From an uncultured Bacteroidales bacterium (GTDB taxonomy: Bacteria > Bacteroidota > Bacteroidia > Bacteroidales > UBA932): 10,305 nucleotides of DNA. The stretch covers positions 1 to 10,305 of the forward strand of contig CAKUSF010000069.1 of the NCBI GenBank assembly GCA_934678915.1, read 5' to 3'. Each line of letters begins with the position of its first letter. Within the stretch, counting starts at the first letter, position 1. Shown piece after piece: positions 4,595 through 8,790 of this stretch. A model generated the notes under the pieces. It saw only the letters and a list, made by a program, of their open reading frames with translations. It was not told the DNA's origin and did no database searches. The position numbers were made by a program, and so were the translations under genes.

Positions 4595-5500
4595 TTGAAC
4601 GTGACACTGAACGCCTGCATAAAATCCATGAGGTTAAGAACGCTACCGTTGTCTTTGGCTGGGGTGACACTTGGCGTATGCCTTGCCGCTGGCAAATTTA
4701 GAGTCAGCCCATGGACAGCAGTGCTAGTGTTCCTTACTACGGTCTGCCTCCAAATTCTCTCAAACCTTTCCAACGAACTTGGCGACTCCTTGAATGGGAC
4801 CGACACAGACGAACGTCAAGGTCCTCAGTACGCTCTGGGAAGCGGAGAGATGTCCGTGAGGGACATCAAAATACTCATCGGAATATTCGTTGGTCTTTGT
4901 ATTGTTTCCGGTCTAGCAATGATTCAGGTTTCATTCGGGGACATATTCAAAACAGAGTCAATCTGCCTGGAAGTAATAGGCGCAGCTGCGATTGCGGGTG
5001 CAATGAAGTACACTTTGGGGAAGAACCCTTATGGGTACAGAGGGCTCGGTGATGTGTTCGTGTTCATATTCTTCGGTCTCGTCTCGGTGCTAGGCGGGTA
5101 CTATGTCGCAGCCAGGGAACTGCCATCGCTAGTCATGCTGCTACCAGCTTCGGCCATAGGCTGCTTTAGTGTCGGTGTACTGAATGTCAACAACATAAGA
5201 GACATGAAGACCGATGCGGTGAATCGTGTGACCGTGGCCATCAAACTTGGAATGAAAGGTGCAAGAATATACCAAACCGTCCTGATCGTTCTAGGCCTAG
5301 CGCTGATGCTCGCCTTCTGCGCGGTCTATGACTTCGCACCATGGCACTTCTTGTTCATCATCACTATTCCTCTGTACATCAAACATTTACAAGGCATCTG
5401 GACTCGAAGCGACCGCTGTCTTGACCCGATGCTACCGATGCTCGTGATCTCAACTTTCTTCCTTTCCATCATCGTTGGAGTGGGATTTCTAATTTTCTAG
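4595..5500 (+). CDS. menA: 1,4-dihydroxy-2-naphthoate polyprenyltransferase (MenA)
   Basis: MenA is an integral membrane prenyltransferase that attaches a polyprenyl chain to 1,4-dihydroxy-2-naphthoate, giving demethylmenaquinone. The 301-residue protein belongs to the UbiA superfamily. The two Mg-diphosphate binding regions are seen as NELGDSLNGTDTDER (60-74, in the place of the usual N-D-Y-x-D) and NNIRDMKTD (199-207, matching NNxRDxxxD). Around them are about eight hydrophobic segments, for example at 40-56, 92-112, 153-170, 176-197, 227-245, 250-262 and 280-301. The start is uncertain: TTG 4595, GTG 4601 or ATG 4628. The ATG would remove residues before MRLRTLPLS that family members normally have, so I prefer TTG or GTG; the promoter spacing agrees. 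UbiE follows after 4 bp and performs the next step, which supports MenA over other UbiA enzymes. Confidence 0.93.
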   Translation: MNVTLNACIKSMRLRTLPLSLAGVTLGVCLAAGKFRVSPWTAVLVFLTTVCLQILSNLSNELGDSLNGTDTDERQGPQYALGSGEMSVRDIKILIGIFVGLCIVSGLAMIQVSFGDIFKTESICLEVIGAAAIAGAMKYTLGKNPYGYRGLGDVFVFIFFGLVSVLGGYYVAARELPSLVMLLPASAIGCFSVGVLNVNNIRDMKTDAVNRVTVAIKLGMKGARIYQTVLIVLGLALMLAFCAVYDFAPWHFLFIITIPLYIKHLQGIWTRSDRCLDPMLPMLVISTFFLSIIVGVGFLIF

Positions 5501-5504
5501 GAAT

Positions 5505-6350
5505 ATGCCGACAAAATCAAAAGTCAGGAATATGTTCGACAGCATCGCAGGCGACTATGATGCTCTGAATCACATACTTTCACTGGACATTGACAAGATT
5601 TGGAGAAGAAAGGCTCTGAAACAGATTGTGGACGCTCCTGCACCGGTTCAGGTTCTGGACCTAGCCTGCGGGACGGGGGATTTCTCCATCGCAATCGCCA
5701 AGGCGTTGACACGGTCGTTGAGCCTGCCGAAACGACCGGACTCTGGGAAAACGGCCCTTCGACAAGCTCAGGGACCTGTCAATGCGGTCACTGAGCCTGT
5801 CGAAGTGACCGACGCTTCGACAAACGCTTCGACAAACGCTTCGACAAGCTCAGCGACCGGAGGCCATGTCACAGGTGTGGATCTGTCCGAAGGCATGCTG
5901 GCCGTGATGCGTGAGAAAGTAGGGAAGGCCGGACTGAACGAGATGATCAGCATAGAGGAAGGCGACGGAGAGAACCTCAGATTTCCCGACAACACCTTCG
6001 ACAGAGTCACCATCGCATTCGGAATCAGGAACTTTGAAGACAGACTAAAAGGCCTAAAGGAGATGCTCCGCGTACTCAAACCCGGTGGCCGCCTCGTGAT
6101 CCTTGAGCTGTCACGCCCCGAGAACAAGGTGATCCGTTGGTTCTACGACCTGTATTTTCTCCACATTCTCCCGAAGGTCGGAGGAAAGGTCTCCGGAGAC
6201 AAGGCCGCCTACACCTATCTCCCCACCTCCGTTACTGCCTTCCCCGGCAAGAAGGAATTCATGGCGATGATGCGCGAAGCCGGCTTCCGCACCGTAACCC
6301 ACAAAGCCTTCACCCTCGGCATCTGCCGGATGTACACTGGCGAGAAATAG
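5505..6350 (+). CDS. ubiE: Demethylmenaquinone methyltransferase with REP-derived insert
   Basis: UbiE/MenG is a cytoplasmic SAM-dependent methyltransferase that converts demethylmenaquinone to menaquinone, the last step of the pathway. The protein has 281 residues against about 230-250 usual. Seen in order: the family N-terminus FDSIAGDYDALNHILSLDID (11-30); SAM motif I VLDLACGTGDFS (50-61); an insert at about 69-119; the next strand with the ribose-binding acid, VTGVDLSEGML (D126); EEGDGENLRFPDNTFD (151-166); IAFGIRNFEDR (170-180); and LRVLKPGGRLVILELSRP (188-205). The insert falls in the loop between beta1-alphaA and beta2 and consists of REP-like palindromes read in frame, giving a low-complexity stretch with ASTNASTNAST. 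Without it the length is about 230, as expected. All visible catalytic motifs are intact, so the gene is probably functional. An AGGA overlapping the menA stop may serve as ribosome binding site. Confidence 0.93.
   Translation: MPTKSKVRNMFDSIAGDYDALNHILSLDIDKIWRRKALKQIVDAPAPVQVLDLACGTGDFSIAIAKALTRSLSLPKRPDSGKTALRQAQGPVNAVTEPVEVTDASTNASTNASTSSATGGHVTGVDLSEGMLAVMREKVGKAGLNEMISIEEGDGENLRFPDNTFDRVTIAFGIRNFEDRLKGLKEMLRVLKPGGRLVILELSRPENKVIRWFYDLYFLHILPKVGGKVSGDKAAYTYLPTSVTAFPGKKEFMAMMREAGFRTVTHKAFTLGICRMYTGEK
5713..5858. repeat. Cluster of four alternating REP-like palindromes inside ubiE
   Basis: Four related palindromes with an 11-nt loop core GAGCYTGYCGA (or its complement) lie at 5713-5737, 5753-5776, 5786-5810 and about 5838-5858, alternating in orientation (GAG..., TCGA..., GAG..., TCGA...). 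Copy 1 has perfect 7-bp arms GGTCGTT/AACGACC. Copy 3 has different but equally perfect arms GGTCACT/AGTGACC. Copy 2 pairs GGCCCT with AGGGACC leaving one bulged A. Copy 4 pairs only CGCT/AGCG because its 5' arm runs into the 12-bp tandem repeat. Stem changes that preserve pairing indicate selection for a hairpin in DNA or RNA. The arrangement resembles a BIME (paired REP cluster). The whole block is free of stops in the ubiE frame. Confidence 0.85.
5812..5847 (+). repeat. Three perfect tandem copies of a 12-bp unit
   Basis: ACGCTTCGACAA is repeated three times exactly at 5812-5823, 5824-5835 and 5836-5847. The unit is part of the REP palindrome, so it probably grew by slippage or recombination after insertion. 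As 12 bp is a multiple of three, each unit adds four residues (A-S-T-N type) without breaking the ubiE frame. Copy number may vary between strains. Confidence 0.9.
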
Positions 6351-8678: not shown

Positions 8679-8702
8679 GGCGCTTCGACAAGCTCAGCGA
8701 CC
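8679..8702. repeat. REP-like palindrome, downstream copy 1
   Basis: GGCGCT, then the 11-nt loop TCGACAAGCTC, then AGCGACC: a stem with one bulged A and the same loop core as copies inside ubiE. It is in the same orientation as ubiE copies 2 and 4. It lies in non-coding sequence between the 70-bp hairpin and the DUF1080 gene. Confidence 0.8.
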
Positions 8703-8766: not shown

Positions 8767-8790
8767 GGCGCTTCGACAGGCTCAGCAACC
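8767..8790. repeat. REP-like palindrome, downstream copy 2
   Basis: GGCGCT, the loop TCGACAGGCTC, then AGCAACC. It is the same family and orientation as the copy at 8679-8702, with one stem mismatch. It ends 6 bp before the stop codon of the DUF1080 gene (read on the minus strand it lies just after that stop), a typical place for REP elements at gene 3' ends. Confidence 0.8.

Follow-up and report, generated by a model that had tools for sequence, protein, structure and literature searches.

A cluster of REP-like hairpin repeats within the ubiE reading frame of an uncultured Bacteroidales bacterium

The DNA analysed in this study (hereafter the window) is a stretch of 10,305 nucleotides from an uncultured Bacteroidales bacterium. 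In the window, menA (4595..5500, + strand) precedes ubiE/menG (Table 1). The ubiE frame is complete and contains no internal stops. The MenG/UbiE model TIGR01934 matched its product with 255.2 bits (cut-off 158.35), and the match was split into two separate stretches because residues 70-118 of UbiE are foreign. An earlier reading of this DNA from the letters alone (hereafter the sequence-only reading) had placed an insert of 51 codons at 5709..5860. Comparison with the insert-less relative P0076 showed that this span is two codons too wide and gave the 49 codons listed in Table 1. The insert can equally be placed at 5709..5855, since one Thr is repeated. The other two statements on the frame were borne out: it is kept through the insert as a stop-free ORF of 281 aa, and removal of the insert leaves a protein of normal length (281 - 49 = 232 aa, the length of P0076).

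Table 1. Features of the ubiE insert and related hairpin units in the window
Feature	Position	Strand	Basis and description
ubiE/menG, demethylmenaquinone methyltransferase, 281 aa including the insert	5505..6350	+	ORF and TIGR01934
In-frame insert, 147 nt / 49 codons	5712..5858	+	homologue loops; relatives there read KALT|GGHVT
Hairpin unit 1	5713..5737	-	perfect 7-bp stem GGTCGTT/AACGACC; diverged core TTCGGCAGGCTCA; translated RSLSLPKRP
Hairpin unit 2	5753..5776	+	stem GGcCCT/AGGGaCC with bulge; core TTCGACAAGCTCA; translated LRQAQGP
Hairpin unit 3	5786..5810	-	perfect 7-bp stem GGTCACT/AGTGACC; core TTCGACAGGCTCA; translated VTEPVEVT
12-nt tandem, three exact copies of ACGCTTCGACAA	5812..5847	+	partial-unit duplication after unit 3, overlapping unit 4
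Hairpin unit 4	5837..5858	+	4-bp stem CGCT/AGCG; core TTCGACAAGCTCA; translated STSSAT
Same-family unit, intergenic	8680..8702	+	GCGC-TTCGACAAGCTCA-GCGACC
Same-family unit, intergenic	8768..8790	+	GCGC-TTCGACAGGCTCA-GCAACC

The insert holds four hairpin units in the orientations -,+,-,+, and no two of these units share a stem. When up to two mismatches to the core TTCGACARGCTCAG were allowed, six matches were found in the window (0.21 expected); none of 200 shuffles reached six. Four of these matches lie within the insert, at 5718 (-), 5758 (+), 5791 (-) and 5840 (+), and two lie outside it, at 8684 (+) and 8772 (+). Folding of 5700..5865 as single-strand DNA gave a z of -3.79, and none of 200 shuffles was equally stable. 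The alternating cores and the folding confirm the REP/BIME-like cluster of four palindromes that the sequence-only reading had described. A general repeat search found a 12-nt spacing in two repeat families (D1, D2) at the tandem, a feature absent from the sequence-only reading; between 5600 and 5950 it reported no inverted pair, because the short stems fall under its thresholds. At gathering scores, Rfam matched nothing in the window. With four units, four stems and four reading frames, the insert appears, as far as its letters tell, to be a non-coding repeat caught in an ORF.

The unit measures about 22-25 nt. Its 13-nt core, TTCGACARGCTCA, is conserved, and the stem that closes it varies yet stays complementary. 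The stem was examined in 108 distinct units from the window and from loci of five copy-rich genomes, the fixed core having been used to find them. The core-proximal pairs 1, 2 and 3 were Watson-Crick in 106, 106 and 95 of the 108 units, while 1000 shuffles of the arms gave means of 79.0, 67.8 and 52.2 and maxima of 88, 80 and 70, respectively. The stems (CCC/GGG, TCC/GGA, TGG/CCA, TGC/GCA and others) therefore vary around a constant core. The covarying stem comprises 3 bp and a fixed T-A pair, leaves an 11-nt loop and is followed further out by a mismatch or bulge. A scan of a viral collection yielded 42 stretches, which served for the stem test only; in pairs 1 and 3, one of the two bases is set by the scan pattern. 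Among the 43 viral-contig units fitting this pattern, the free pair 2 held in 40 (shuffle maximum 26). Pairs 1, 2 and 3 held in 17, 18 and 18 of the other 20 (shuffle maxima 18, 18 and 15), where only pair 3 exceeded every shuffle.

Beyond the stem, a consensus A-CCG was seen on one side (A.85, C.89, C.93, G.84). Known terminal tags were sought within 16 nt of 107 units. GTAG stood to the left of five units and to the right of none, and CTAC was absent. CGTC was found to the left of 18 and to the right of nine (GACG: eight right, seven left), TGTC to the left of eight and to the right of one (GACA: two right, nine left), and none of these is fixed. ATGAC adjoined only three of the 107 units. 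A sister repeat, with a loop of CTTCG, CTGCG or similar, was also present in the fetched Bacteroidales loci. Each of its first four stem positions was paired in 17 of 18 units, and its right flank carried ATGAC in 14 and GACA in 15 of 19 units.

UbiE homologues were collected as 189 different proteins from the best 120 of each of two protein-collection searches. In the loop between the SAM motif and GVDLS, 60 of these listed homologues are insert-less, 38 are forward-type and 91 are reverse-type; the sample is biased toward inserts (129 of 189 have one), since the first query itself held the insert. Orthologues lacking the insert and having exact flanks (KALT|GGHVT), which the sequence-only reading had named as support, were thus found. 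Insert-less relatives have a short loop such as IAIAKALTGGHVT. Among the listed homologues, their cores are at most 94.8% identical to that of the window UbiE, and an insert-less and a forward-type protein can share 98.6% identity outside the loop. Inserts in the other listed homologues range from 20 to 74 residues, the latter being the longest forward form. The shortest, in P0039, adds 20 residues (RSFRQAQRPTCAVTEPAEVT) and reads as one inverted pair. P0182 and P0183 retain SSAT, a stretch that also ends forward inserts and that looks like a deletion footprint in these two proteins.

The reverse-type proteins differ in loop length by steps of four residues. In the seven tested, the loop matched a reverse-strand frame of the window insert (VEAxxxxxVEAxVTSTGxVT) with scores of 53-61, which none of 300 shuffles reached; the best forward frames scored 32-42. 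Two forward-type proteins also beat all 300 shuffles in a reverse frame, with scores of 59 and 47 (forward scores 178 and 122). The reverse-frame score alone is therefore weak proof, because quasi-palindromes score in both directions. The order of the parts, the 12-nt tandem followed by unit 3, is preserved in reverse in the reverse-type loops, and this is a stronger argument for inversion than the frame score. It is possible that the reverse-type loops represent an independent insertion and not a flipped module. Judged from protein sequences, they apparently carry the same module in the opposite orientation. The two types occur in very similar proteins: P0016 and P0181, one forward-type and the other reverse-type, have cores that are 99.5% identical.

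No match to the reverse-type DNA was found in the contigs of the viral collection. In the genomes searched at the DNA level, the best UbiE was 80-82% identical over part of the query, and the insert was absent from the loops inspected. Since no closer genome DNA was found, both the UbiE inversion and the comparison of empty with filled UbiE sites stand at the protein level. The UbiE loops in those genomes measure 14-29 residues against 64 in the window by the same loop measure. Two proteins (L138 from G353 and L140 from G360) have loops of 48 residues at the same place that, by eye, are unlike the repeat. These unrelated loops and the range of 14-29 residues indicate that the UbiE loop tolerates length change generally. 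In a tree of loop-free cores with 95 rows (36 forward, 28 of 82 reverse, 29 of 58 insert-less and two outgroups), the insert classes are mixed and 51 of 92 inner branches are open. With this poor resolution, gains and losses of the insert cannot be counted well or dated. In a Treponema-titled contig (L034:5400-6450), an elongation-factor-like stretch runs straight into a Bacteroidales ubiE; it was left out as a probable chimeric assembly because of this junction.

The window UbiE was modelled with AlphaFold from 29 sequences, with a mean pLDDT of 80.4. The pLDDT falls below 50 at residues 74-117, between the helix of residues 59-73 (helix A) and the strand of residues 121-126 (strand 2). From this position, the insert is predicted to hang off the turn after helix A, which we take to point away from the cofactor edge in this fold. 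Most of the insert is disordered in the model and no fold is assigned to it. Its placement in a loop, suggested earlier from the letters, agrees with this model.

The repeat is real, neither a product of chance nor a one-off, and is spread through part of Bacteroidota. In a related genus, 45 of 151 sampled genomes contain the exact core at least once, 34 of them in one to three copies. The richest five hold 54, 47, 37, 34 and 22 exact cores (194 in all), and a reversed-pattern control was non-zero in three of the 151 genomes. In a phylum-wide sample of 296 genomes, 94 contain the exact core and 16 contain it at least ten times; the control was non-zero in eight. The CTTCG sister repeat occurs in 21 of 37 genomes, which are partly different ones (67 copies in G434, 53 in G136, five in G420 and none in G389). 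An in-frame inverted pair of similar units, STGSAPESVVPEPVEG, was also seen in uvrC of a Microbacterium sp. plasmid (NZ_CP072877.1, L244:2501-2572), with 78.1% identity over 72 nt.

The location of the copies was analyzed at 70 loci with 86 distinct copies from the five rich genomes, with G271 contributing few. Of the 86 copies, 76 lie within open frames as chosen by a simple longest-ORF rule, which is crude and includes some false frames. The in-frame share of the copies was 88% against 92% for control positions at the same loci with frames of at least 60 aa, 73% against 85% with at least 150 aa, and 64% against 70% with at least 250 aa. A coding share below that of the controls indicates either that genes are avoided to some extent or that some of the frames are false, and the copies shun genes only mildly. 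When 30 of 45 selected copy-bearing frames were compared with Pfam, a family was assigned to 25 at an E of 0.001. The copy-bearing families include Dxs, DnaX, PurD, PriA (in two genomes), CysS, SAH hydrolase, MutL, FtsK, RmlD, DcuC and an aminotransferase. The unit lies within the matched domain in DcuC, FAD_oxidored, Aminotran_1_2 and GARS_A, and between or after domains in DnaX and MutL. The frames used by 55 copies in ORFs of at least 250 aa, a tally that includes some related genes repeatedly, were LRQAQ in 23, VPExVEG in 17, PSTxSxT in 12, FDxLRD in three and SLSLSKG in none. This skewed usage suggests selection on the encoded peptide.

The sequence-only reading had called an intact cluster in a conserved enzyme unusual, which holds in part. 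What makes UbiE striking is the length of its insert, its place in the quinone pathway and the apparent occurrence of two orientations among close relatives. Coding insertions as such, however, are common in this clade, as the above count shows, and intragenic REPs and Rickettsia palindromic elements (RPEs) have already been published.

Three further insertion sites were compared at the DNA level. The purD gene of G136 shows a clean in-frame gain of 21 nt at TTCGGCC^AC, and this site is empty in 13 of 14 other rows (12 of 13 other genomes). At the same point, purD of G420 (L257) has a different unit, a GGTTGGTGAGCCTGTCGAACCAC unit that seems to be nested in the loop of another unit. In CysS (L265-L280, near residue 364 of the G420 protein), G420 carries a TTCGACAGG unit in frame. 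Nine of 15 other rows have at this site an in-frame CGTC-like sister repeat of the TCCTGAGCGAAGCGAAGGA type or a near variant, and G271 has a longer one. At the SAH hydrolase site (L212 and L281-L291, near residue 398 of the G420 protein), a TTCGACAAG unit with an ACAAG loop was found in G420 and G331, a nested unit in G434, a CTGCG-loop hairpin in G001 and G302, and other loop variants in G539, G217 and G556. None of these loops was present there in G136, G459 and G481; L292 and L293, in which the alignment breaks off at this site, were left unscored. The three sites may be either recurrent landing sites or old hairpins with exchanged loops.

One rival reading takes the cluster for a classical REP/BIME that is moved by a RAYT (REP-associated tyrosine transposase) of the same genome. 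Short alternating palindromes of variable copy number would be in line with such an origin. According to the relevant portion of one report (PMC6006769), REPs are tied to some TnpA(Y1) subclasses, two of which are common in Bacteroidetes. Of ten copy-bearing genomes tested, nine had a match to Y1_Tnp (PF01797); however, so did 13 of 20 zero-copy genomes, and the copy-rich G418 had none. The 18 matches examined for proximity came from G420, G136, G331, G389, G271 and G306. Among the listed copies (26 each for G389 and G420, with those of G418 outside the lists), a copy lay within 1 kb of only two. One is a RAYT-like gene of G389 (L228:781-1906) with a unit 147 bp downstream, at 2053, the closest pair seen; the other is a RAYT-like frame of G420, where a neighbouring transporter frame contains a unit at a distance of about 0.7 kb. 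The scarcity of GTAG and CTAC near the units also speaks against a classical REP. The PF01797 search in 30 genomes thus tied no mobilising gene to the repeat, RAYT-like genes being present in genomes with and without it. A RAYT link is not supported overall, yet a weak case for it can be made in G389 and G420, and we consider mobilisation of a classical REP by a RAYT rather unlikely.

Formation of the repeats in place, by slippage or tandem duplication and with no mobile element, would agree with the 12-nt tandem inside the insert and with the four-residue steps of the reverse-type loops. The core recurs with different stems across genomes, genes and contigs, however, and PurD gained one entire unit at a clean site. 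Because of the shared core elsewhere and the gain in PurD, slippage accounts for the tandem and not for the units. Slippage is probably the origin of the tandem; as an origin of the whole insert it is hardly credible. It had also been suggested that the element is domesticated, in which case the insert would serve UbiE, for example in folding, partner binding or mRNA control. An in-frame insert is maintained in many lineages, as its frequency among the listed homologues indicates within the bias of that sample. Nevertheless, even proteins with 98-99.5% identical cores differ in whether they carry the insert, in how long it is and in which way it is oriented, and most of the insert is unfolded in the structure model. 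Such variation among near-identical cores speaks for tolerance and not for function, which makes domestication improbable.

Very probably, then, a non-autonomous REP-like hairpin element landed in frame in the UbiE loop that joins helix A to strand 2, and the insert is a cluster of its units. One inverted pair, as in P0039, may have been inserted first between KALT and GGHVT. Extra units, 12-nt slippage copies and loop changes would then have lengthened the insert, and other lineages would have lost it or come to carry the module in reverse. The insert would be neutral for the enzyme, selection removing only those insertions that break the frame or the fold. Our best guess for the movement is a single-strand hairpin, moved by a Y1-type transposase in trans or by an accident at the replication fork. 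The hairpin cluster in UbiE thus looks like selfish DNA that is put up with by tolerant protein loops. A more far-reaching view can be offered tentatively, and we lean somewhat against it: a stem-TTCG-N5/6-CTCA-stem superfamily of Bacteroidales would still be mobile, hardly avoiding genes and repeatedly re-invading the same loops. UbiE, CysS and SAH hydrolase would then be landing pads with in-frame replacement, nesting, deletion and flipping, and the conserved loop would be recognised by some enzyme.

These observations extend protein-coding palindromic elements, which are best known from Rickettsia, to uncultured gut Bacteroidales. In housekeeping enzymes they bring together sites that are empty, sites with one unit or a pair, and sites with nested or apparently reversed insertions. 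This natural series opens questions as to how the element moves, why some loops are hit repeatedly and how disordered peptides enter proteins. It also carries a warning for annotation, since LRQAQGP, VTEPVEV, PSTSSGT and VPELVEG may be one DNA repeat in different frames.

BIMEs are intergenic clusters of E. coli type REP units in alternating orientation. The insert resembles them in its alternating units with spacers and differs from them in that it lies in a coding frame. The present repeat was not found in the part of the open-access literature covered here, where the lone match to RQAQGP belonged, by its title and abstract, to an unrelated protein study. REPs in general are short palindromes (20-40 nt) able to form a stem-loop, and the present units, with their covarying stems, resemble them in this. 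REPs also typically occur in many copies per genome; the 10-kb window alone has six units, and counts in related genomes reach 54. In the sections of PMC3733652 drawn on here, most REPs are intergenic, CGTC loops have 4-5 nt, and CGTC repeats are listed without a transposase association. The same sections place GTAG and CGTC REPs inside genes as well, some clusters encoding 43-82 residues, possibly in linkers or loops. The repeat is like these intragenic REPs in that short palindromes, single or grouped, lie in housekeeping and DNA-repair frames. The ATGAC right flank of the sister repeat is, moreover, the reverse complement of GTCAT, the CGTC-type start given in that source. Unlike CGTC REPs, which have stems of 8-9 bp, the repeat has A-CCG beside the stem and a conserved loop, 11 nt as counted. 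Most copies examined also lie in frames and not between genes (76 of 86 in the five related genomes), and among the 107 units neither a fixed GTAG nor a fixed CGTC/TGTC tag was found. Since it has neither such a tag nor a mostly extragenic location, we do not file the repeat under GTAG or CGTC REPs. The RepRanger search is built on intergenic regions, according to the portion of PMC12306157 on its design.

The RPEs, as far as they are treated in the relevant part of PMC3767692, enter existing frames without destroying them, and the segments that they encode are solvent-exposed. They are 100-150 bp in length, and different types occur near one site in orthologues. Unlike these, the present unit has only 22-25 nt and another core, and its hosts are Bacteroidota and at least one actinobacterial record. 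Judged by the motif alone, ATGAC of RPE-4/-6/-7 is not characteristic of it, since it adjoins three of 107 units. Tolerated in-frame insertion, on the other hand, was observed for UbiE, PurD, CysS and SAH hydrolase, with disorder predicted for UbiE. The repeat therefore shares with RPEs an insertion that preserves the frame and the occurrence of differing types near one site (PMC3767692, same part).
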